NCBI GenBank assembly: GCA_017466065.1
Contig: JAFTUV010000017.1
Span: forward strand, 124,001 to 188,000
Length of the DNA stretch: 64,000 nt
Origin: Bacteroidaceae bacterium
GTDB taxonomy: Bacteria > Bacteroidota > Bacteroidia > Bacteroidales > Bacteroidaceae
Direction of reading: 5' to 3'
Positions 24,017-45,940 of the stretch are shown in pieces (within the stretch, counting starts at the first letter, position 1; each line of letters starts with the position of its first letter). The position numbers and the translations under genes were made by a program. The notes under the pieces were generated by a model, which was given only the letters and a program-made list of their open reading frames with translations, was not told where the DNA came from and did not search any database.

Positions 24017-25243
24017 CTATTCTGTTGGCGGCAATGTTCCGTTGGCTATTATATAACTTATATTATTAAGGATATTTTCTTGCTTTGAGCCAAGCGGATA
24101 GATTGTGTAATAATTGCTGTATTCGTCAATGTTAAAGTCGGGTACCGATGCGGTGAGCGGCTCACCGGTTGCATCGAGTATGTAGGCTGTTACAGGGTTT
24201 ATCTTGAAGAGGTAGGGCGATTCATAGCATTCGGTATATAGAGCCATGCTATTGGATGCCTTGCCCACAATCCTTACATCGTTTCGTGCTGCTTGTATGG
24301 CTTTTATGAATACACTTGCAACGCCTTGGGTGCGGGCGGTGGTTATTATGTAGAGTGGTTTTTCGCTGACATTTAAACTTCCGGATGGAGTGAGTATATT
24401 CTCGCGACTGTCGCTGTCGATGTTTTTTGTGAGCGAACAGAATGTTCCTTGTTTGCCGGCCGGGATAAACGGGCTTGCTGCAACAGCTGCATCTGCGAGT
24501 GAGGTGCTGTTGTTGTATCGCAGGTCTATTATGATATTGTCGATTGCCTCGCCCGAGATTGTAGCAAGAGCGTTGTAAAGGGCATCGGCAGCCTCCTGCC
24601 CGTCGAATGTGTTACAAAGTATGTAACCGCTTCTGGTGGTAATATCGTCAATAATTGTTGTTACAGGAGTGGGGGACGGGGATATCTCAGTTGCTGCCGG
24701 CAGTGTTACCTTGTCGAGATTATCCCAAAAGTATTGCTCGGCAATGTCGTCGTAATCTATTGTGTGAACAGTGAGTTCCACCCCTGTGCCGGTGGAGAGC
24801 CTGTTTCCCGAACTTGTCGTAATTCTGTTACCGTCAATTTCGGATATCCACATACCACGCACAAGCCCGGCAGCAGCAGCCACGGAGGCGGGCTCTACAT
24901 ATTCTACAAGGGCGTATGTCTTTGATGGAGTTATCCCCAGCGGGTCACGCATAAGCGAATAGGTTATTCCATAGCTTGTTGCTGCAAGCGTGTCGGTGAA
25001 GAACGATACATTATCCTGTTGCAGAAGCAGTTTCTTGAAAAATTCTTTGGGAGTGGAAAAATAGATATTCTGTTTAACCTCTCCAATCGCTTCTGCCCAC
25101 AGATACACTTCTTTCATTTGGGAATAGATCCATTGATTCTCTTGTGTGAGCGAGTTAAATTCACCCGAACGGTCCTCTCCGCAACTGCACAGAAGCAGTG
25201 CGAACAAGGGGAGTGTGACGATTTTCTTTAATATCTTTTTCAT
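24017..25243 (-). CDS. S41-family (C-terminal protease-like) lipoprotein lacking the catalytic pair
   Basis: The 408-residue protein has a lipobox (LFALLLCSC), a PDZ-like domain (about residues 95-160: YALVEYVEPASVAAAAGLVR, GMWISEIDGN) and an S41 protease-like domain (IIDLRYNN, LYIITTARTQGVAS, VRIVGK). Compared with the active S41 enzyme at 61083-62693 in this window, where Ser 295 and Lys 320 form the dyad, the equivalent positions here read Val and Met. It is therefore probably a pseudoprotease that binds peptides. A TAAATTTG -7 box lies only a few bases before the ATG. It is monocistronic. Confidence 0.8.
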   Translation of the reverse strand: MKKILKKIVTLPLFALLLCSCGEDRSGEFNSLTQENQWIYSQMKEVYLWAEAIGEVKQNIYFSTPKEFFKKLLLQQDNVSFFTDTLAATSYGITYSLMRDPLGITPSKTYALVEYVEPASVAAAAGLVRGMWISEIDGNRITTSSGNRLSTGTGVELTVHTIDYDDIAEQYFWDNLDKVTLPAATEISPSPTPVTTIIDDITTRSGYILCNTFDGQEAADALYNALATISGEAIDNIIIDLRYNNSTSLADAAVAASPFIPAGKQGTFCSLTKNIDSDSRENILTPSGSLNVSEKPLYIITTARTQGVASVFIKAIQAARNDVRIVGKASNSMALYTECYESPYLFKINPVTAYILDATGEPLTASVPDFNIDEYSNYYTIYPLGSKQENILNNISYIIANGTLPPTE

Positions 25244-25383: not shown

Positions 25384-25720
25384 AATTGCATATCGCTTGC
25401 AGAAGCCCGATATGGGTTATGTGGGAGGGTGCAAAATTTTATTGAAAAGCGTTTACTAACGCTCTTTCTTGGCTGTCTGGAACTTCGCAACTTCTAATCT
25501 CTGTCAAGAATGTAGCAGCGGTAGATGCCTTGTGGTGTGTCTATGCATGCCGTTTACACTATGGTTGTTGATGTTTATACATCATTGACAACTGTTAGTG
25601 TATAGGTTTGTTATATACATACAGCGTGAGGCTTCTGCGTTGCTCGTTCAACAGAGATAGGCAATGCGAAGGCCTCAGATAGCGGGACGAGTAACAGGTA
25701 TGGACTCTCACGCTTTTTTT
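25384..25720 (+). ncRNA. Candidate structured non-coding RNA, about 335 nt, identity unknown
   Basis: This region has a strong upstream promoter, no plausible coding sequence and several stable helices. A long hairpin at 25556-25601 pairs ACACTA with TAGTGT, GTTGT with ACAAC and TGATGT with ACATCA. A second hairpin pairs 25628-25643 with 25661-25676, with two G-U pairs. The 3' end is closed by AGCGTGAG (25623-25630) with CTCACGCT (25707-25714), followed by TTTTTT. CTCGTT near 25644 could also pair with GACGAG near 25686. It does not show the tmRNA, SRP RNA or RNase P core. A 6S-like or Bacteroidales-specific regulatory RNA is possible. It could also be a leader of the downstream operon, but the terminator argues for a separate transcript. 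Confidence 0.55.
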
Positions 25721-25808
25721 GTGTCCGATAGGCACATTTAATCAAAACATAATAGTCAGGTTATTAGAAGTCCGTAACCAAAAGAGCATTAGGCACAATG
25801 GTTGGGGA

Positions 25809-28800
25809 ATGGAGATAATCGACAATATACACAAAACACTAAAAGAGGATTTAGTTGTAGAGTTGCGCGAGGGCAGTAAACTCTCTATCGCAGCTTCCTG
25901 CTTCTCTATCTATGCTTTTCAAGAATTGAAAGAGCAGCTAAAAGATATTGAAGAGTTACGTTTTGTGTTTACCTCTCCCACCTTTACCACCGAAAAGGCA
26001 AGCAAGCAGAAACGTGAATTCTACATTCCGCGTCTCAATCGTGAACGCAATCTTTACGGCTCCGAGTTTGAAGTAAAGCTCCGCAATGAACTTACCCAGC
26101 GTGCCGTTGCCAAAGAGTGCGCCGAGTGGATAAAGAAAAAAGCCTGCTTCAAGTCCAATCGCACAGGCGAGAATATGATGGGCTTTGCCAATGTCGATAA
26201 TACCTCGTATATGCCATTGAACGGCTTTACAACAGTTGAACTTGGTTGTGAACGTGGCGACAATGCCTATACGATGATAAATAAGCTCGAAGCACCGTTC
26301 TCACAGAGATACCTCTCACTCTTCAATCAGCTTTGGAATGATAGCGAGAAGTTGCAGGTCGTTACCGACGAGGTGATAGAGAATATTTCCAACGCTTACA
26401 AGGAGAACGCGCCCGATTTCCTCTATTTCGTAGCACTTTACAATATCTTCCACGAGTTTTTGGAAGATATTTCCGAAGATGTACTGCCTAACGAGGCAAC
26501 AGGCTTCAAGGACAGCGTTATATGGAACAAGCTATACAATTTCCAGCGCGATGCCTCACTTGCCATAATCAACAAATTGGAGAAGTACAACGGCTGTATT
26601 CTTGCCGACAGCGTAGGTTTGGGAAAGACCTTTACCGCACTTTCGGTAGTGAAGTATTATGAGAGCCGTAACCGCAACGTGCTTGTACTTTGCCCCAAGA
26701 AACTCTATGACAACTGGACTACATACCGCAGCAACTACATAAACAACCCATTGGCGAAAGACCGCTTGCGTTACGATGTCCTTTTCCATACCGACCTATC
26801 GCGTGAACACGGTGTTTCCAACGGGTACGACCTTGACAAGATAAATTGGGGAAACTATGACCTTGTCGTTATCGACGAGAGCCACAATTTCCGCAACGGT
26901 GGCAAGGTTACAACAGATGATGACGGCAACCAACGTGAGAACCGTTATTCTCGCTTGCTTAATAAGGTTATATGCAAAGGAGTAAAGACCAAAGTGCTTA
27001 TGCTTTCGGCCACTCCCGTAAACAACCGCTTCAATGACCTTAAAAACCAGCTGCAATTAGCATACGAGGGCGACAGTTCAAATATAGACGGCCTGCTCAA
27101 TACATCGCGTTCTATTGATGACATCTTCCGTCAGGCACAGGCAGCATACAATCGCTGGGCTCGTATTCCAAAAGAAGAACGAACCACAGCAAAGCTGCTC
27201 CAAGAACTCGATTTCGATTTCTTCGAGGTGCTTGACTCCGTTACAATCGCACGCAGTCGCAGGCACATTGAGCAGTATTATGATACCACCGATATTGGCA
27301 AGTTTCCCAAACGCCTGAAGCCTATCTCGCGTCGCCCACATCTTACAAGCCTTAATTCCGCTATCACATACAACGAGATATACGGGCTAATCAACAGCCT
27401 TAACCTCGCCATTTATACTCCGTCGGATTTTCTTCTGCCGAGTGCAAGAGACAAGTATATGACCTCCGACGGCGACGGCCACAACTTTGCAGGCAAAGGA
27501 ATGTCAGGACGCGAAAAGGGTATCCGTCGCCTTATGGGTATAAATATGCTCAAACGCTTGGAAAGTTCTGTAAACTCATTCCGTCTTACCTTGTCGCGCA
27601 TCGAGGCACTTATAAAAGGCGTTGTAGATAAGATTGAGGTTGCCGAAAGAACTGGCAACAGAGCCGGTGCAGCTGTTGACGATTACGATTTCAGTGCAGG
27701 GCTTGATATGGACGAGCAGAACGATGACATTTTCATCGGTGGCAAGAAGTCGCAAATCCTGTTGGACGACTTGGATTATGTAAAGTGGAAGCACTACCTT
27801 GTACAAGACCTTGAAACATTGCAGTTGCTCCTGATGATGCTTAAAGACATCACACCTCAGTACGACAGCAAGCTGCAACAGCTCATTGAGGACTTGCGCA
27901 ATAAGTTCGCAAATCCCATTAACGAGGGCAACAAGAAGATAATAATCTTTACCGCCTTCTCCGACACGGCTGTATATCTCTATGAGAATTTGGCCGACCG
28001 TATCAAGGAGCGCACAGGGCTTAACGTGGCACTGATTACAGGCGATGTAGAGGCACGAAGCACCGTCAAGCTCCGTCAGAAGCTCGACTTCAATACAGTG
28101 CTTACACTCTTCTCGCCATTGTCAAAGGATAAGGCAACACTCCTTCCGAATGTCAATGAAGAAATAGATGTGCTTATTGGTACAGACTGTATTTCGGAAG
28201 GACAGAACTTGCAGGACTGCGACTACCTCATAAACTACGATATACATTGGAATCCGGTGCGTATTATCCAGCGTTTCGGGCGTATTGACCGAATAGGCTC
28301 AAAGAACGAGGTTGTCCAGCTCGTGAACTATTGGCCGGATATGACACTCGATGAATATATCAACCTCAAAGAACGTGTAGAGGCACGAATGAAAGTATCT
28401 GTTATGACCTCGACGGGCGATGACAACCTGCTTTCGGACGAAGAGAAAGGCGACCTTGAATATCGCCGTTCACAGCTCAAACGCTTGCAGGAAGAGGTTG
28501 TAGATTTGGAAGAGATGAACAGCGGTGTCAGCATAATGGATTTAGGCCTGAATGAATTCCGTCTCGACCTATTGGAGTATATGCGTACCAACCGCGATGT
28601 AGAACACACCCCGTTTGGACTCCACGCCGTTGTGCCCTCTACAGAGAATACACCGCCCGGAGTAATTTATATACTCAAGAATCGTTCCGACGGAGTGAAC
28701 ATCGACCACAAGAACCAACTACACCCATTCTATATGGTGTATGTAAAAGATGATTGTCATTTTTCGGGACAAGCCCTCAACAACACGTCTGAACGAAGTG

Positions 28801-29102
28801 AAGAATCTATTTTTATCAATCATTTACAACCGAAAGAGCTCCTCGACCGTATGCGTCAGTTGTGCAAGCCACACAATACCCCTCATACGGAATTGTGCCG
28901 TGAGTTTAATCGTGTTACTCGTGACGGAAAGAATATGCAGCAATACTCCGATTTATTGGGAGATGCTATTTCTTCCATTATCAATGTGAAGGAAGAAAGC
29001 GATATTGATTCTTTCCTCAGTGGTGTACAAGGCTCGCTCTTCACCGAAGAAATACGGGGATTGGATGACTTTGAGTTAATCTGCTTTTTGGTAATCAAAT
29101 AA
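25809..29102 (+). CDS. SNF2/DEAD-like helicase with degenerate phospholipase-D-like N-terminus, in a type III R-M operon
   Basis: The start at 25809 (MEIIDNIHKTLKED) gives 1097 residues; a longer frame from 25719 overlaps the upstream terminator. Residues 1-190 look like a PLD-like domain (KLSIAASCFSIYAFQELKEQ, ELRFVFTSP) but lack the HxK catalytic motif. The SNF2-type motor follows: Walker A DSVGLGKT (about 266-273), DESH (about 356-359), SATP (about 399-402) and motif VI QRFGRIDRIGS (about 821-831). This is an ATP-dependent DNA translocase or helicase by family. It begins the operon with DUF4391, mod and res and probably helps that system. A REP-like insert (SERSEES) lies at about residues 994-1000. 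Confidence 0.88.
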   Translation: MEIIDNIHKTLKEDLVVELREGSKLSIAASCFSIYAFQELKEQLKDIEELRFVFTSPTFTTEKASKQKREFYIPRLNRERNLYGSEFEVKLRNELTQRAVAKECAEWIKKKACFKSNRTGENMMGFANVDNTSYMPLNGFTTVELGCERGDNAYTMINKLEAPFSQRYLSLFNQLWNDSEKLQVVTDEVIENISNAYKENAPDFLYFVALYNIFHEFLEDISEDVLPNEATGFKDSVIWNKLYNFQRDASLAIINKLEKYNGCILADSVGLGKTFTALSVVKYYESRNRNVLVLCPKKLYDNWTTYRSNYINNPLAKDRLRYDVLFHTDLSREHGVSNGYDLDKINWGNYDLVVIDESHNFRNGGKVTTDDDGNQRENRYSRLLNKVICKGVKTKVLMLSATPVNNRFNDLKNQLQLAYEGDSSNIDGLLNTSRSIDDIFRQAQAAYNRWARIPKEERTTAKLLQELDFDFFEVLDSVTIARSRRHIEQYYDTTDIGKFPKRLKPISRRPHLTSLNSAITYNEIYGLINSLNLAIYTPSDFLLPSARDKYMTSDGDGHNFAGKGMSGREKGIRRLMGINMLKRLESSVNSFRLTLSRIEALIKGVVDKIEVAERTGNRAGAAVDDYDFSAGLDMDEQNDDIFIGGKKSQILLDDLDYVKWKHYLVQDLETLQLLLMMLKDITPQYDSKLQQLIEDLRNKFANPINEGNKKIIIFTAFSDTAVYLYENLADRIKERTGLNVALITGDVEARSTVKLRQKLDFNTVLTLFSPLSKDKATLLPNVNEEIDVLIGTDCISEGQNLQDCDYLINYDIHWNPVRIIQRFGRIDRIGSKNEVVQLVNYWPDMTLDEYINLKERVEARMKVSVMTSTGDDNLLSDEEKGDLEYRRSQLKRLQEEVVDLEEMNSGVSIMDLGLNEFRLDLLEYMRTNRDVEHTPFGLHAVVPSTENTPPGVIYILKNRSDGVNIDHKNQLHPFYMVYVKDDCHFSGQALNNTSERSEESIFINHLQPKELLDRMRQLCKPHNTPHTELCREFNRVTRDGKNMQQYSDLLGDAISSIINVKEESDIDSFLSGVQGSLFTEEIRGLDDFELICFLVIK
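28740..28815 (+). repeat. REP-like element captured inside the SNF2 gene
   Basis: CTGAACGAAGTGAAGAATCT at 28789-28808 matches the core of a dispersed intergenic repeat common in Bacteroidota and other phyla, whose in-frame translation is SERSEES. A TGTCATTTTT-like piece lies shortly upstream at 28755. The reading frame is kept. Confidence 0.5.
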
Positions 29103-29104
29103 CT

Positions 29105-29704
29105 ATGTACGGTCTTCCCATATCCACAGAGCGCAAGAAGCAACTTCCAAAGAAAGCCATCTATGCGAAGTTCGATTTGAAACCCTCACAACGTGAGAGC
29201 TTCGATGCCGACATTGCACGTATTGATATTGTAGCAGTTGTTTCTGCTGCAACTGTTCCGGCTTTGAGTGAGGGTACAGAGATTAAAGAATTCTACATAC
29301 TTGCCGTGCAGATGAAACGCAAGGAGTATGATAGCAAAAATATCGCTTTGCTAACGAAACTCATTCCACAAAAGATGGTGTTTGCCCTGCAATTTGAGGA
29401 GCAAACCCAATTTGCCATATACCATACCAAACTCATTTCATCGGAATGGAAAGCCACTGAAGAAGCCACCCTCTCATTGTCGGGATTGAATCTCGATGCC
29501 GTTTGGGAGAACATTGTAAAGAGCATCGGGCAAATTGAAGTCGAAAGTGGGAATACACTTGCCGAACAAATTACAGCCAATGAACAACGGGCGAAACTTC
29601 TTGCACAGATTGCCACGCTTGAACGCAAAATGGCAAGTGAGAAGCAGCCACGCCGCAAGCGAGAATACTTTGAACAGATTAAGAAATTAAAAAATCAGAT
29701 ATAA
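29105..29704 (+). CDS. DUF4391 protein of the type III R-M-like operon
   Basis: The 199-residue protein matches the DUF4391 family: MYGLPISTERKKQLPKKAIY at the start, an EFYILAVQMKRKEYDSKNIA strand region and a hydrophobic core with FALQFEEQTQFAIYH. The C-terminal ~45 residues are a predicted coiled coil (ANEQRAKLLAQIATLERKM). It starts 2 nt after the SNF2 gene and its stop overlaps the mod start (TAATG). The function of the family is not known to me. Tight coupling on both sides suggests an adaptor joining the SNF2 motor to the methyltransferase or nuclease; this is inference. Confidence 0.85.
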   Translation: MYGLPISTERKKQLPKKAIYAKFDLKPSQRESFDADIARIDIVAVVSAATVPALSEGTEIKEFYILAVQMKRKEYDSKNIALLTKLIPQKMVFALQFEEQTQFAIYHTKLISSEWKATEEATLSLSGLNLDAVWENIVKSIGQIEVESGNTLAEQITANEQRAKLLAQIATLERKMASEKQPRRKREYFEQIKKLKNQI

Positions 29705-31626
29705 TGGAGAAGCTGAAAATGCAGAGCCACGATGTGATAGGCTCGAATACACAGAAGATTGCCCAACTGTTCCCCAACTGCGTAACGGAACGCTTGGGCA
29801 AAGGCGGTAAGCCCGAATTGGCCATCGACTTTGAGAAATTACAAGCAGAGTTATCCAATGAAATCATAGCAGAAGGCGAAGAACGCTATCAGTTCACTTG
29901 GCCCGATAAGCGTGTAGCTGTTCGTTTGGCAAATATGCCTACGACAATGACACTTCGCCCTTGTCGCGAGGAGAGTATGGATTTTGACAACACACAAAAC
30001 CTTTACATTGAAGGCGACAATCTTGATGTATTGAAAGTATTGCGTGAAACATATTTGGGTAAGGTGAAGATGATCTATATTGATCCTCCTTACAATACAG
30101 GCAATGACTTTGTGTATAATGATGATTTTGCTCAAAGCAAAGCAGAATTTGAGGCGCAAAGTGGTCTATTTGATGATGAAGGTAACCGTACGGTAGATCC
30201 TATGGTGCAGAACACCGAAAGCAATGGTCGTTTTCATACCGATTGGCTCAATATGATTTATCCTCGTTTGAAAGTTGCCAAAGACTTACTATCCGGTGAT
30301 GGGGTTATTTTTATTTCAATAGGTGATGCGGAAATAAATAATCTACATAAAATATGCAATGAGATATATGGTGAATCTAATTTTATTGCTAAGGTTGTTA
30401 TTATTACTGGTGCAAATCAGGCTGGAGAAGGTGTCCTTATTCAAAAGAACATAGAATATGTCTTGTGTTTCAGTAAGAACATAAATAACGCTATAATAAA
30501 TCGTGTTGACAAAACTGAAGAATCTTGGCGTAATTTAAATGACGCTCCAACTCCTCTTATAACTCGACCTGATATGGGATATACTATATATTATAATCCT
30601 ACAACAGAAGAGATGATACCTATATTCGATTATGATAAAACAAGATTAAGTTCTAATGACGAAAACATAATTTATTCAACGGATTTAAATCTAGTTAGAA
30701 AAGGATTTGTTCCTGTTCGACCTGGTAAACGAAATGGATCTTTACATAGATGGAGGTGGGGAATAGAAACTTTTAAAGAGCGTATTGCAGAAATTAAAAT
30801 GTTTTCAAACAAAGGAAACTATATTCCTAAATTTATGCAAGGAGGTTTCAATCCACCAAAAAACTATCACAATTTCTCAGGAGGTGCATCTGAATTAAAG
30901 TTACTTTTTGGAGAAAAAACACCTTTTGATTATCCCAAAGGATTAACTTTTCTAAAATACATTGTCAGCATTGGAGCCAAACAGGACTCTATAATCCTCG
31001 ACTTCTTCTCTGGCTCAGCAACAACCGCTCACGCCGTAATGAAATTAAATGCCGAAGATGGCGGTAATCGCAAATTCATTATGGTGCAATTGCCAGAAAA
31101 AACAGACGAGAAAAGCGAAGCCCACAAAGCTGGATATAAGAATATCTGCGAGATTGGCAAAGAACGTATCCGCAGAGCTGGTAAGAAAGTCAAAGAAGAG
31201 GCAGGACTATCGGCTCAAAATCTTGACACCGGTTTCCGAGTGCTGAAACTCGACTCCTCAAATATGGAAGAAGTCTATTACACTCCACAGGAGTTTGAGT
31301 TGCAATCACTCTTTAATGAGAATGTTAAGGCAGACCGTACCAACGAGGATTTGCTTTTCCAAGTAATGCTTGACCTTGGCATAGAACTTTCTGCCAAGAT
31401 TGAATGCAAGCAGATAGCAGGAAAGAGCGTTCACTTAGTAGATGACAACTATCTTGTGGCTTGCTTCGACCGTGATGTAAACGAATCAGCCATTACGGAA
31501 ATTGCCAAGTTGCAACCTATCTATTTTGTTATGCGTGATGCCTCGGCAGCCAATGACAATGTGATAGACAATTTTGAGCAGATTTTTAAGCACTATTCAC
31601 CCGATACTAATTGCAGAATTATCTAA
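29704..31626 (+). CDS. mod: Type III restriction system DNA methyltransferase (Mod)
   Basis: The 640-residue N6-adenine methyltransferase has the type III (beta-class) motif order: catalytic DPPYNTGNDFVYNDDF at about residue 127, then the target-recognition region, then the SAM-binding FFSGSATTAHAVM at about residue 434. The N-terminus (AIDFEKLQAELSNEIIAEGEERYQF) and the C-terminal part (ETDEKSEAHKAGYKNICEI-like) are typical. Mod alone methylates one strand of an asymmetric site; with Res it forms the cleaving complex. The region 30300-30980 is much more AT-rich than the flanks, consistent with a swapped recognition domain. No simple repeat for phase variation was seen. Confidence 0.95.
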   Translation: MEKLKMQSHDVIGSNTQKIAQLFPNCVTERLGKGGKPELAIDFEKLQAELSNEIIAEGEERYQFTWPDKRVAVRLANMPTTMTLRPCREESMDFDNTQNLYIEGDNLDVLKVLRETYLGKVKMIYIDPPYNTGNDFVYNDDFAQSKAEFEAQSGLFDDEGNRTVDPMVQNTESNGRFHTDWLNMIYPRLKVAKDLLSGDGVIFISIGDAEINNLHKICNEIYGESNFIAKVVIITGANQAGEGVLIQKNIEYVLCFSKNINNAIINRVDKTEESWRNLNDAPTPLITRPDMGYTIYYNPTTEEMIPIFDYDKTRLSSNDENIIYSTDLNLVRKGFVPVRPGKRNGSLHRWRWGIETFKERIAEIKMFSNKGNYIPKFMQGGFNPPKNYHNFSGGASELKLLFGEKTPFDYPKGLTFLKYIVSIGAKQDSIILDFFSGSATTAHAVMKLNAEDGGNRKFIMVQLPEKTDEKSEAHKAGYKNICEIGKERIRRAGKKVKEEAGLSAQNLDTGFRVLKLDSSNMEEVYYTPQEFELQSLFNENVKADRTNEDLLFQVMLDLGIELSAKIECKQIAGKSVHLVDDNYLVACFDRDVNESAITEIAKLQPIYFVMRDASAANDNVIDNFEQIFKHYSPDTNCRII

Positions 31627-31646
31627 CGATGAAATATTGTGCAAAT

Positions 31647-31684
31647 GAGAGCAGAGCGAGCTTGCTTGCTATGCCGAGTGCAGC
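31647..31684 (+). repeat. REP-like intergenic element between mod and res
   Basis: A GC-rich, imperfectly palindromic stretch, with core AGCGAGCTTGCTTGCT then ATGCCGAGTGCAGCC, differs in composition from the surrounding DNA. It resembles dispersed intergenic repeats of Bacteroides genomes. It gives the impression of a longer res N-terminus when translated. Confidence 0.4.
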
Positions 31685-31710
31685 CAATATTCTATAAAAA
31701 TGAAATTTTT

Positions 31711-34700
31711 ATGAAATTCAAGTTTAAGATTCAGCAATACCAGACCGATGCCGTAGAAAATACGGTAGCGGTCTTTACAGGACAGCCATCGCACACCTTG
31801 ACCAAATATCGTCTCGATATGGGTAAGCGCAATGGTGAATTACGATATAAAGGTGATGATGATGCATACTGCAATGCCGATATTGAATTGACAGATGCTC
31901 AATTGTTGGATAATATCCGCAAAATACAGAGCAGTAATCTTATTGCTCCAAGCAATTCGCTTACCAAAGGATTAGGGCGAGTGAATCTTGATATAGAAAT
32001 GGAGACCGGTACAGGTAAAACATACGTTTATATAAAAACGATGTTTGAACTGAACAAGCAATATGGTTGGAATAAATTCATAATTGTTGTACCAAGCATT
32101 GCTATTCGTGAGGGCGTGGCAAAGAGTTTCTCTATGCTTGAAGAGCATTTCATGGAGCATTACAACAAAAAAGCACGTTGGTTTGTATATAACAGTTCGA
32201 ACTTGAATGCTCTTGATACATATTCACAGGATGGCGGTATATCTGTGATGATTATAAACACACAAGCATTTGCTGCCTCGATGAAAGAAGGAGGTAAGAG
32301 CAAGGAGAGCCGTATTATATACTCCAAGCGTGATGAATTTGCCAGCCGCAGGCCTATTGATGTCATTTCCGCCAACCGCCCGATAGTTATAATGGACGAG
32401 CCACAGAGAATGGAGGGTGATGCCACACAAACAGGTATCAGGCGATTTAAGCCATTATTTGTGCTCAACTACTCGGCAACACACCGAACGAGGCACGATA
32501 CTATATACGCACTTGACGCTTACGATGCCTTTAAGCATCAACTTGTCAAGAAAATTCAGGTACGTGGCTTTGAGATAAAGAACTTAAAAGGAACAACTGC
32601 ATATCTGTATGTCGATAGCATTATACTCTCGCCCAAGCACCCACCAATGGCGCGTATTGAGCTGCAATGCAAGAATGCTTCGGGAGCTATAAACCGTCAA
32701 GTGAGAAAATTCTCAGTTGGCGACAGTTTAAGAGCAGAATCGGGGCTTGCAGTATATGATGATTATACAATAACGGAGATAAATCCTCGCGGACGAGGTT
32801 ATGTTACATTCCTAAATGGCGAAACGGTTTATTGCGGACAGGTTATTGGTGATAGCAGTGAAGAAGCAATGCAACGTGTGCAGATACGTGAAACCATTAT
32901 CGCACACTTTGAAAAAGAGAAGGAGTTGTTCAATCGTGGCATTAAATGCCTATCATTGTTCTTTATTGATGAGGTTGCAAACTACCGTCAATATGATGAG
33001 GAAGGCAATGAGATAAAGGGCAAATTCCAAAAGATATTTGAAGAGGAGTATGCCCGAATTGTAAATGATTATATTTCTGTATTTGAAACACCATACGACA
33101 ATTATCTGCGTCGTTTCTATCCCTTTGAAGTGCACAAAGGGTATTTTTCAATAGATAAGCGTAGCGGAAGAGTTATTGACAGTAAAATCCCTGCCAGGAG
33201 TGATGTATCGGATGATATTTCGGCATACGAGCTTATTCTCAAAAACAAGGAGCGTCTGTTGAGTTTTGAAGAGCCTACACGCTTTATCTTCTCGCACTCG
33301 GCACTGCGTGAGGGTTGGGACAATCCTAACGTGTTTCAGATATGTACTCTCCGTCATAGCAATTCCACCACAGCCAAACGGCAGGAGGTGGGGCGCGGTT
33401 TGCGTATATGTGTAAACAAGGAAGGTATAAGACAGGACAAAGAGACGCTTGGCGATGATGTACACAACATAAATGTACTCACTGTCATTGCCAACGAAAG
33501 TTATAACGATTTCACTACCGCATTGCAGCGTGAGACACGCGAGGCGTTGCGTGAGCGTGCTGTTATGGCAACTTCCGAATACTTTGCAGGCAAGCGTGTT
33601 AAAGACAACGAAGGTGCAATACATGAAATTACACCGCAAGAGGCAAGTCGCATAATAGTTTATCTTGAAGACAACAATTATATAGACAGCAACGGCTATT
33701 TGACAGCAATATATCATACTGCCTTTGCAGAAAACAGGCTTGTGCCTTTTGGAGAGAAATTGCAGCCGATTGCAGAAGGTGTTACGGCTCTTATACAATC
33801 AATCTTTGACCCGAAAGTGCTTGATGACATGGTTGAAGAGGCTGCTAACAGCACCGACGGCAATGAACTTAATGATAACTTCAACGATGAGCGTTTCCAA
33901 AAACTTTGGAATGAGATAAATCATCAGTATGTATATACTGTGCATTATGACAGCGAAGAACTTATCAAAAAAGTTATTGAAAAATGCAGAACCGATTTGA
34001 CTGTAACGAAATTGCAGTACGTTAAGGTTGTTGGCGACCAGCAGGATGCCGTATCATTCGGCAATACAAAATCTACTACCCGTGAATTGACCGATGTCTG
34101 CACTTCTACCGTTTCATACGACCTTGTGGGTGATATTGCAAAAGGTGCAAGGCTCACCCGTCGCTCTGTCGTGAAGATACTTCAAGGCATAGGCAATCAA
34201 GCGTTGATGTTCAAGAACAATCCCGAAGAGTTTATACGCAATTTGATTAAAATTATACGCGAACAGAAGGCTACGATGATTGTAGAGCATATTACATATA
34301 ATAGGACAAAAGCGGTTTATGATAGCAACATCTTTGTTCCCGAACGAAAGTTGAACATAAATAAAGTGCTTGAAGTACAAAAGCATGTTACTCCATATAT
34401 TGCATTTGACAGCGAGGGTGAACGTGAATTTGCAAAGGCTCTTGACGGAGCAACCGAGGTACATGTGTATGCAAAACTTCCCCGAAAACTAAAAATTCCA
34501 ACTCCTGTTGGCGATTATGCACCCGATTGGGCTATAGTTTTCAATGAAGGAGTTGTACGACACGTGTTCTTTATTGCTGAAACAAAAGGTTCACTCGACG
34601 GTATGGAATTGCGTGGTGTTGAAAAAGCAAAGACTCAATGTGCGAAAAAACTGTTCAATAGCCTTTCTACCTCCACTATAAAATATGGCGTTGTAGATAA

Positions 34701-34737
34701 GTTTGAGAATCTTTACAATATTATCAATGGAGTATAA
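31711..34737 (+). CDS. res: Type III restriction system endonuclease/helicase subunit (Res)
   Basis: The start at 31711 (MKFKFKIQQYQTDAVENT) is chosen because an earlier frame runs through the REP-like repeat. The 1008 residues form a superfamily 2 motor with METGTGKT (about 98-105), MDEPQ (about 228), SATHRTRHD and QEVGRGLRI (motif VI, about 560). The C-terminal PD-(D/E)xK nuclease has SEGEREFAKAL, YAPDWAI and FIAETKG, so the catalytic D, E and K are all present. It translocates or diffuses along DNA and cuts at paired unmethylated sites together with Mod. It ends the four-gene operon. Confidence 0.94.
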   Translation: MKFKFKIQQYQTDAVENTVAVFTGQPSHTLTKYRLDMGKRNGELRYKGDDDAYCNADIELTDAQLLDNIRKIQSSNLIAPSNSLTKGLGRVNLDIEMETGTGKTYVYIKTMFELNKQYGWNKFIIVVPSIAIREGVAKSFSMLEEHFMEHYNKKARWFVYNSSNLNALDTYSQDGGISVMIINTQAFAASMKEGGKSKESRIIYSKRDEFASRRPIDVISANRPIVIMDEPQRMEGDATQTGIRRFKPLFVLNYSATHRTRHDTIYALDAYDAFKHQLVKKIQVRGFEIKNLKGTTAYLYVDSIILSPKHPPMARIELQCKNASGAINRQVRKFSVGDSLRAESGLAVYDDYTITEINPRGRGYVTFLNGETVYCGQVIGDSSEEAMQRVQIRETIIAHFEKEKELFNRGIKCLSLFFIDEVANYRQYDEEGNEIKGKFQKIFEEEYARIVNDYISVFETPYDNYLRRFYPFEVHKGYFSIDKRSGRVIDSKIPARSDVSDDISAYELILKNKERLLSFEEPTRFIFSHSALREGWDNPNVFQICTLRHSNSTTAKRQEVGRGLRICVNKEGIRQDKETLGDDVHNINVLTVIANESYNDFTTALQRETREALRERAVMATSEYFAGKRVKDNEGAIHEITPQEASRIIVYLEDNNYIDSNGYLTAIYHTAFAENRLVPFGEKLQPIAEGVTALIQSIFDPKVLDDMVEEAANSTDGNELNDNFNDERFQKLWNEINHQYVYTVHYDSEELIKKVIEKCRTDLTVTKLQYVKVVGDQQDAVSFGNTKSTTRELTDVCTSTVSYDLVGDIAKGARLTRRSVVKILQGIGNQALMFKNNPEEFIRNLIKIIREQKATMIVEHITYNRTKAVYDSNIFVPERKLNINKVLEVQKHVTPYIAFDSEGEREFAKALDGATEVHVYAKLPRKLKIPTPVGDYAPDWAIVFNEGVVRHVFFIAETKGSLDGMELRGVEKAKTQCAKKLFNSLSTSTIKYGVVDKFENLYNIINGV

Positions 34738-34897: not shown

Positions 34898-35061
34898 ATG
34901 GCAACAGAAAAAACGAATAGGGGAAAGAGGTGCCGATATTACAAAGATGGTTAGATTAGTGAGGATGGCACTATGGTGACAATTAAACAAAAACGGCTCT
35001 TGGAAATATTCTGAGGCACTTATACAAGGTTAAAATAGAAGAAGTGTACAACTTAAGTTAA
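34898..35061 (+). pseudogene. Frameshifted remnant of a short unknown gene
   Basis: Three overlapping fragments in different frames read like one short protein: MATEKTNRGKRCRYYKDG, then ISEDGTMVTIKQKRLLE, then ILRHLYKVKIEEVYNLS and a stop at 35059-35061. Two frame changes are needed to join them. I do not recognise the product. It fills most of the 34738-35101 gap and lies at the edge of the R-M block, so it may be debris from insertion of the block. The rest of the gap holds only the terminators. Confidence 0.3.
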
Positions 35062-35082
35062 AGTGTACACTTCTTCTATTTT
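35032..35082 (-). terminator. Hairpin terminator after rpsP
   Basis: An 18-bp perfect stem (35032-35049 with 35065-35082) and a 15-nt loop lie 19 nt beyond the rpsP stop on the minus strand. The AT-rich stem ends supply the T-run. Confidence 0.75.
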
Positions 35083-35101: not shown

Positions 35102-35665
35102 TTAAGCCTCTGCGGGAGCCTCGGTTGCTTCCTCGGCAGGTGCTTCTGTTGCCTCTGCATTCTCGGCAGCGGCAGCAGCTTCTGCTTCGGCTTTTGCAAG
35201 AGCCTCGGCAGCTTTCTTGTCGGCTACCTTCTTGGCAATAGCTGCATTTACCTCTTTCTCGGCCTCCAAGCGTGCTTTCTTCTCGTCACGTTTAGCCTGC
35301 TCGTCGGCACTCTTGATACCGTTCAATGCGTTCTCCTTGGCAGTCTTCCAAGCGTTGAATTTTGCCTGTGCTGTTGCCTCGTCGAATGCACCTTTCTTAA
35401 CACCGCCCTGCAAGTGCTTCATCATATAAACGCCCTGTGAAGAGAGGATGCTGCGAACTGTGTCGGTAGGAGTTGCACCGTTGTTAACCCACCACAATGC
35501 TCTCTCGAAGTTGATGTCGATGGTAGCAGGGTTTGTGTTGGGGTTGTAGGTACCGATTTTCTCGGTAAACTTTCCATCACGTGGAGCTCTCGAATCTGCA
35601 ATCACGATAGAGTAGAATGCGTAGTGTTTACGGCCTCTTCTCTGAAGTCTGATTTTTGTTGCCAT
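35102..35665 (-). CDS. rpsP: 30S ribosomal protein S16 with long Ala/Glu-rich C-terminal extension
   Basis: The first ~80 residues are canonical S16 ([43 protein letters not shown]). Residues 100-187 are an extension rich in Ala, Glu and Lys, ending in [17 protein letters not shown]; such tails are common in Bacteroidota S16. S16 binds 16S rRNA and is needed for 30S assembly. It is monocistronic here, with a promoter at 35726-35756 and a hairpin terminator, and is divergent from the DUF115 gene. Confidence 0.97.
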
Positions 35666-45574: not shown

Positions 45575-45940
45575 GACAGAAATTCTACAGTCGGCCGGCT
45601 TGTCGCTGTTGTCGCAAGACAAAAGAGGAAAGTCCGGGCAGCGCAGAGCACTCCACTTCCTAACAGAAAGCTGTCTGCGAAGGCGGAGTAACGCAGAAGA
45701 AAATAACCGCCCGCAAGGGTAAGGGTGAGAAGGTGGGGTAAGAGCCCACCGGCCGTGCAGTGATGTACGGGCCGTGCGTCTTGGAGGCTGCAAGTTCGTG
45801 TAAACCGGCATTTGAGGGTTGCTCGCCCGAGCCGGAGGGTAGAACGCTTTAACAATGTGGTGACATATTGTATAGATGAATGACAGGCACCCCGCAAGGG
45901 GTACAGAACCCGGCTTATAGGCCAACTGGAAACAGAAGAG
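45575..45940 (+). ncRNA. rnpB: RNase P RNA, bacterial class A
   Basis: The conserved 5' core GAGGAAAGTCCGGGC is at 45625-45639 and the 3' core ACAGAACCCGGCTTAT is at 45903-45918, the two strands of the P4/universal catalytic core. P1 is formed by AGTCGGCC (45589-45596) with GGCCAACT near the 3' end. The GGTAGAACGCTTTAA-type and CCCGCAAGGGG segments fit known type A RNAs. It is the catalytic RNA that matures tRNA 5' ends. The exact ends are estimated. A terminator with T-run follows. Confidence 0.95.

Follow-up and report, generated by a model that had tools for sequence, protein, structure and literature searches.

The DNA described here is a 64,000-nucleotide stretch from a Bacteroidaceae bacterium (GenBank assembly GCA_017466065.1, contig JAFTUV010000017.1, forward-strand positions 124,001 to 188,000; this whole stretch is called the window). 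At positions 25809-34737 it carries four genes in the order SNF2, DUF4391, mod and res, all with open reading frames (ORFs). The four-gene cassette is a new, widespread variant of type III restriction-modification (RM), apparently undescribed though common. Proteins were named by Pfam, NCBIfam and PADLOC scans, and by fold and PDB matching for EcoP15I and RapA:

25809..29102, plus strand: SNF2/RapA-like motor with a PLD-like N-terminal domain (residues about 1-176) without HxK; PF00176 1.4e-12, PF00271 5.2e-15, PDLC01075 4e-117, best fold match RapA
29105..29704, plus strand: DUF4391 protein of 199 amino acids (aa), a likely adaptor made up of an alpha/beta domain and a helical hairpin; PF14335 5.3e-29, AlphaFold2 pLDDT 89.9, homology to the N-terminus of Eco57I-type methyltransferases
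29704..31626, plus strand: mod, type III N6-adenine methyltransferase; PF01555 4e-28, MTase_III 1.1e-211, EcoP15I Mod (4zcf) 2.1e-59
31711..34737, plus strand: res, SF2 ATPase with a C-terminal endonuclease domain; PF04851, PF19778 nuclease 5.4e-29, REase_III 9.4e-280, EcoP15I Res (4zcf) 2.9e-73

Genes and proteins of the cassette

The first-pass annotation had described the four genes as tightly coupled. Indeed, only 2 bases separate SNF2 from DUF4391, and a TAATG is common to the end of DUF4391 and the start of mod. The SNF2 ORF called mechanically opens at TTG 25719; ATG 25809, which is its residue 31, was taken as the start because most of the listed plasmid homologues begin there. For res, ATG 31711 is the likely start rather than GTG 31639, because the PRK15483 match starts at residue 25 of the ORF opening at GTG 31639.

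Type III RM enzymes are usually described as having two subunits only, Mod and Res, and as sliding between two inverted sites. The window's Mod is related to EcoP15I Mod, and its Res is an SF2 ATPase that keeps the C-terminal nuclease domain. However, SNF2 and DUF4391 accompany mod as a rule, and therefore the cassette is called a type III variant and not a plain member.

The N-terminal domain of SNF2 is regarded as PLD-like because aligned relatives, such as the one in L165 (L-numbers denote individual loci examined), have HGK...GSSNFT. A Pfam scan of the window protein listed no PLD family, and MMG occupies the place of HxK, so that the catalytic motif of PLD/HKD nucleases is missing. The loss of HxK that had been noted in the window is family-wide. 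The motif is missing in 125 of 126 full-length SNF2 proteins and is kept in 6 of 190 when the viral set is included; a GSxxFT-like frame persists in many divergent members. Sorted by neighbours, the 190 comprise 163 proteins beside mod or res, of which 1 has HxK, 15 beside a DUF4391 hit alone (1 with HxK) and 12 beside none of these (4 with HxK). A stand-alone PLD nuclease is ruled out by the absence of HxK. A role of SNF2 as an extra translocase would rest on the motor domains retained beside this degenerate nuclease-like domain.

Five HxK-bearing SNF2 proteins outside four-gene loci (L361, L365, L367, L369 and L382) form one clade with support 1.0 in a midpoint-rooted tree. They belong to the same SNF2 family as the window protein but keep HxK, and no mod, res or separate DUF4391 gene was seen beside them. 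In L361, L365, L367 and L382, the SNF2 gene is followed by an Eco57I-type methyltransferase of 1200-1560 aa (with a KilA-N gene intervening in L361), and in L369, which is cut, the first 440 aa of a protein, without a Pfam match, align with the N-termini of those methyltransferases. The DUF4391 hit of L367 falls at its methyltransferase, and Pfam DUF4391 is found below cut-off in two methyltransferases of the clade. A single hhalign comparison of the DUF4391 family with the methyltransferase N-terminus gave 96.4% (E 1.1e-9). At the level of sequence profiles, DUF4391 is shown to be homologous to the N-terminal domain of the Eco57I-type methyltransferase beside the HxK-bearing SNF2 clade. The view that DUF4391 is a likely adaptor gains support from this, since the methyltransferase of the sister system has a DUF4391-like domain built in.

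The DUF4391 protein had been credited with a coiled coil and a TAATG overlap with mod; the overlap stands, and the "coiled coil" turned out to be a predicted helical hairpin (residues 152-178 and 182-198), with E179 and Q181 nearly invariant. No PDB structure was matched at E 0.001 or better when the fold was searched, and a second look gave only weak, mixed matches, which is no proof of a new fold. NCBIfam and PADLOC scans listed no family for the window's DUF4391 protein. PADLOC does already hold one model, PDLC01075 (C3a139, "HKD+Snf2"), that matches the cassette's SNF2, in the window over the full length. This model is a poor membership test, since it also matches unrelated proteins of 1293 aa (L225:8129-12010; 1.3e-174) and 1321 aa (L226:8086-12051; 3.8e-77), and it looks chimeric.

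Conserved gene order and inserted genes

Homologue searches gave at least 7994 relatives of SNF2 (7994 of 7994 scored candidates matching) and 3954 matches among 4115 scored candidates for DUF4391. A genome scan with the SNF2 alignment yielded the best 80 loci; the window, five loci on plasmids and a "phage" contig brought the total to 87 sources. The order SNF2-DUF4391-mod-res was found in 70 of the 87, with broken or split genes counted as present and the profiles supplied by the seven first sources. In L027, a second mod and a Res fragment intervene, and L067 is the sole permuted locus among the 87 (mod-res-SNF2-DUF4391). The 15 other sources are without some parts; in 14 of them the sequence stops at the last gene seen or no more than about 550 bases beyond it. 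In L009, an opposite-strand ORF lies between SNF2 and a DUF4391 fragment.

Even draws were made from the phyla of one Bacteroidota, one Bacillota and one Pseudomonadota centre genome, each centre being a known positive. PF14335 was found in 19/296, 25/299 and 21/349 genomes, respectively (about 6-8%), or in 18/295, 24/298 and 20/348 without the centre genomes, and in none of 14 control genomes. The draws held 78 DUF4391 rows (26, 28 and 24), split by eye from profile coordinates into 61 complete ones, which were classified, and 17 fragments, split copies or weak matches in long frames, which were left out; the DUF4391 genes of L173 and L177, missed by our own profile and found by Pfam, were entered by hand. 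SNF2 lies directly upstream of 56 of the 61 complete genes (as a remnant in L169) and the other 5 are at a contig edge, which makes 56 of 56 testable cases. mod lies downstream of 56, split or damaged copies in L145, L147 and L210 included; 4 genes are at an edge and 1 (L212) is without mod (56 of 57 testable). res is in reach for 43, 16 run off the stretch and 2 are without it. With the three centre genomes removed, the testable counts are 53/53 for SNF2 and 54/55 for mod.

The reverse search with PDLC01075 at E 1e-60 gave 23 places in 21 of the 299 genomes. Two places (in genomes G565 and G573) were dropped, their proteins having no detectable similarity to the window SNF2, and 21 of 21 retained places adjoin DUF4391 by coordinates; more distant SNF2 genes could be missed here, because two candidates per genome were scored at that threshold. 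The possibility raised at the outset, that SNF2 and DUF4391 occur mostly without mod and res, came out opposite in these counts (70/87 loci, 56/56 and 56/57 testable genes, 21/21 in reverse) and in the viral contigs described below. The counts show SNF2-DUF4391-mod-res to be a conserved core in draws from three phyla.

The cassette is widespread and not peculiar to the window. On viral contigs, 74 loci were found: DUF4391, mod and res are all present in 43, a further 20 are consistent but cut, and 11 are without at least one part. A close copy of the L002 locus is present in 10 of 5426 Escherichia coli genomes, at 11 places, 10 of them on plasmids. Searching for DUF4391 by tblastn gave no match in plasmids and two in phage records; the plasmid result is a sensitivity limit, because in four of the five SNF2 loci opened on plasmids, the gene adjoining SNF2 is annotated as DUF4391. 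In the fifth, L003, the gene at this place is annotated as hypothetical and was added to the profile by position. The plasmid locus L005, from Methylotuvimicrobium 20Z, is a complete homologue. A different arrangement was seen in L380, where SNF2-DUF4391 is followed by a 684-aa Piwi-domain protein (L380:4442-6493) and no mod or res was found in reach.

Related mod-res loci without SNF2 also exist (L231, L233, L234, L236, L237, L238 and L241-L244). A Res tree of 129 sequences held 109 from loci with SNF2 or DUF4391, 13 labelled two-gene and 7 from cut loci. At least 3 of the 13 (L160, L235 and L246) belong to loci that are eroded or broken, and they group close to Res of four-gene loci. By contrast, L243 and L244 have a two-gene Res far from the rest of the tree, the nearest others being at 4.6-4.9 (EcoP15I was not in the tree). 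Three two-gene loci have a Res of about 790-808 aa without an endonuclease domain recognisable by Pfam (L231:6072-8444, L233:10630-13002 and L234:9441-11867). In L145 and L210, mod is split near its middle, likely in the target-recognition region, into two open frames, and SNF2 and res are open.

Spacing was measured in 88 complete loci. A gap within 60 bases was found from SNF2 to DUF4391 in 74, from DUF4391 to mod in 41 and from mod to res in 42; the latter two gaps are both this short in 27 of the 88, the window included and the permuted L067 and the overlapping L066 left out of the count. Other genes, some of them of known abortive-infection types, are frequently inserted at these two positions; the window is without an insert. 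We counted 184 inserted ORFs in 118 clusters and scanned 59 chosen ones. Among the first 25 of 40 Pfam families matched were Schlafen/AlbA (4), AAA_15 (3), DUF4276 (2), GmrSD (2), TIR (2) and Fic (2), with single matches to RhuM, YhcG, AbiJ, AbiH, Abi_C, HerA and AAA_13. PADLOC recognised the AAA plus DUF4276 pair of L001 as HEC-01A/B, the RhuM protein as PDC-S05 and the AAA_13 insert of L172 as PDC-S06 and, more weakly, PrrC.

Leader RNA and surroundings of the operon

Upstream of the operon lies a further element:

25610..25726, plus strand: structured leader RNA, candidate attenuator, ending 82 bases before the SNF2 start codon; model R1, fold z -3.2, covariation, no Rfam match

The fold of positions 25615-25725 is better than that of shuffled sequences (z -3.2), of which 1 in 200 was as good. 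The leader also has a T-run. In another 12 loci, a homologue lies shortly before SNF2 (L007, L008, L010, L011, L017, L018, L020, L021, L043, L051, L060 and L076). Three of these were not used for the model, with E values of 0.0011 (L051), 0.0065 (L011, cut) and 0.38 (L018, alone at chance level). The search also gave three weak opposite-strand echoes, and the model found no match in 81 further sources. At the gathering score, Rfam matched neither the window element nor any of 13 other loci, and a permissive scan gave none over the element itself.

In 50 aligned copies, 98.2% of pair cells were paired (42-54% in slid controls), in an alignment fitted to the model, which favours the model's structure. 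Double changes were found in 12 of 17 pairs, with a shuffle mean of 5.2. The loop can pair with the 5' arm, with at least 6 consecutive pairs in 46 of the 50 copies and a mean of 9.0 (6.1 for shuffled loops), and because of this an attenuator is a fair guess.

The leader RNA is not specific to this operon. Matches were found in 67 of 374 genomes of the order Bacteroidales, and each of 12 genomes has 4 to 16 of them, echoes included; because the family is dispersed across Bacteroidales, we do not claim it as part of this system alone. When 40 high-scoring copies were opened, 41 proteins were found downstream of 39, including matches to SNF2 (5), ResIII (6), PLDc_2 (4), Eco57I (3), C5 methylase (2) and BspA-type repeats (6), among other genes. 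No enrichment is claimed, since these copies score highly against a model trained on SNF2 leaders. In L290, the RNA lies close before a 717-aa ORF, probably mod, and a type III Res; no SNF2 is present in that stretch.

The operon is flanked by minus-strand ORFs at 24017-25243 and 35102-35665, the latter of which reads as ribosomal protein S16. A 25-base inverted repeat with arms 1 base apart (35032-35082) lies 3' of the operon before the S16-like ORF. Farther away, RNase P RNA class A was found at 45587-45933 on the plus strand, where mechanical ORFs are listed on the opposite strand.

Possible origin and function of the cassette

The first-pass annotation knew of no named system with this composition, and none was recognised in our literature searches, in which most subscription journals were outside coverage. 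In full texts of 5.39 million papers, DUF4391 occurred in one only, as a table entry in an unrelated study, "C3a139" was not mentioned, and no matching type III system with SNF2, PLD or extra genes was recognised. EcoP15I (4zcf) is close in its Mod and Res, clear relatives with methyltransferase, helicase and endonuclease domains, but the cassette has two further conserved genes and many of its relatives carry variable genes inside the operon. DISARM (DrmD), BREX (BrxH) and Hma (HmaA) share a RapA-like SNF2 motor in a methylation-based defence locus, whereas the three remaining proteins of the cassette belong, by their matches, to DUF4391 and to type III families. Membership in DISARM was rejected: DrmD scored 144.7 bits against the NCBI cut-off of 610, the DrmA model (61.6 bits) matches SNF2 only, as a helicase, and DrmB was not among the matches listed. 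BREX was rejected as well, with no PglZ, BrxC/PglY or PglX among the matches listed for the four proteins, to which the scan was confined, and with BrxH (92.8 bits) matching SNF2 as a helicase. Hma consists of the helicase HmaA, the m5C methylase HmaB and the ATPase HmaC (PMC8565338, excerpt), and membership in it was likewise rejected; the methylase of the cassette is of the N6/N4 type III kind, and the operon has no further HmaC-like ATPase gene. In Type 2 BREX-related systems (PMC12839542, excerpt), an N-terminal HKD domain is likewise fused to an SNF2 helicase, but they have a DUF499 ATPase and DUF3780 and the HKD domain is taken as the effector, whereas the cassette has Res as the likely nuclease, and DUF4391.

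We favour, with a probability of about 0.57, a four-subunit type III RM variant in which a Mod/Res pair acquired the motor and the docking domain from an HKD-SNF2/Eco57I system. A helicase-nuclease would have lost its nuclease and been recruited, together with a methyltransferase-docking domain, to serve Mod and Res. Mod would choose the sites, and its methylation would protect self DNA for the whole complex. DUF4391 would dock the motor on Mod or the Mod-Res complex at unmethylated sites, SNF2 would travel on DNA to clear bound proteins or to widen the search for a second site, and Res would be the cutting subunit. Since only one strand carries the type III methyl mark, a motor that allowed cutting at single sites would be dangerous to the host, and for this reason we prefer help with search or clearing to a lifting of the two-site rule; EcoP15I acts only if two sites are unmethylated and inverted (PMC12707154, excerpt).

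This reading is supported by the gene order and two-way adjacency, by the loss of HxK in 162 of 163 SNF2 proteins beside mod or res together with the single clade of the five HxK-bearing relatives, by the homology of DUF4391 to the methyltransferase N-terminus, by protein distances that correlate best within the pairs, by loci in which mod and res outlast the other two genes, and by the nuclease domain kept in Res. Several points weigh against it. Most loci were retrieved by similarity to the window SNF2, with profiles built from the window and L001-L006. L165 has an HxK-bearing SNF2 inside a normal four-gene locus. Confidence in the predicted SNF2 structure is modest (pLDDT 69), and it was searched as a whole, not by its N-terminal domain separately. 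The link of DUF4391 to the methyltransferases goes via a longer DUF4391 branch; the window's short branch reached only 35.8% against the methyltransferase domain, for which the alignment has 5 rows. Erosion of the loci is suggestive only and goes both ways. In L246 and L179, SNF2 and DUF4391 are fragmentary, and in L160 a DUF4391 fragment alone is left; since all three keep open mod and res, mod-res can persist without the other two genes. In L245, mod is split as well, and L147 counts against the four-subunit reading because its erosion is reversed, with SNF2 and DUF4391 open, mod split and only a Res remnant in the stretch. Finally, the correlations between protein distances were computed with no species-tree control. 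They are stronger within pairs (SNF2-DUF4391, 0.72; mod-res, 0.75) than across them (0.61-0.68), none being reached in 100 permutations; restricted to the main clade of 80 loci, they come to 0.64 and 0.72 within pairs and 0.44-0.59 across.

This difference also speaks for a rival reading, in which SNF2-DUF4391 is a separate effector of the DISARM/BREX-helicase type that uses Mod's methyl marks as a self label beside an ordinary type III enzyme. The permuted order in L067 fits that idea, as does the kinship of SNF2, which is nearest to the RapA-like defence helicases DrmD, BrxH and HmaA. We consider it rather unlikely, since HxK is missing in 162 of the 163 members with mod or res, so that a stand-alone effector would have no obvious nuclease, and since the resemblance of DUF4391 to a methyltransferase-attached domain suggests physical docking. 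It is less probable still that the pair detects when the type III enzyme is inhibited or fails, and then serves as a switch for toxic genes in the internal positions. The inserts do include PrrC-related AAA_13, AAA plus DUF4276, Fic, AbiH, AbiJ, RhuM and GmrSD types, and PrrC of a type IC locus is set off by inhibition of the restriction enzyme (PMC12707154, excerpt). That locus, with its embedded prrC, likewise hosts a guard gene inside a restriction operon, but the core of the cassette is type III, and its inserts are of many kinds and occupy two internal positions (the comparison rests on the same excerpt). Yet both main positions are empty in the 27 of 88 complete loci mentioned above, the window among them, and therefore the pair is maintained even where there is no cargo. 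An ordinary two-gene type III system with unrelated defence-island neighbours, to which the mod-res loci without SNF2 might point, is scarcely credible: the near-perfect two-way adjacency in the even draws, the almost invariant order and the close spacing speak against it, and neighbours by mere chance are contradicted by the adjacency counts.

A wider proposal goes beyond the four-subunit reading and is correspondingly more doubtful. The cassette might form a type III lineage of its own. Its SNF2 motor, nuclease-dead and taken over together with the docking domain from an HKD-SNF2/Eco57I system, would supply the type III enzyme with powered translocation or the clearing of roadblocks; the operon might also be a cradle for interchangeable abortive-infection genes and, in Bacteroidales, often be under a new attenuator-like leader RNA family.

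The two-protein picture of type III enzymes is to be set against a four-gene form marked by DUF4391 in about 6-8% of the drawn genomes of three phyla. If the favoured reading is true, communication of type III enzymes along DNA would become testable by removing one motor, and DUF4391, so far without a function, would get a concrete role to test. New anti-phage genes could readily be sought at the internal positions of the cassette.

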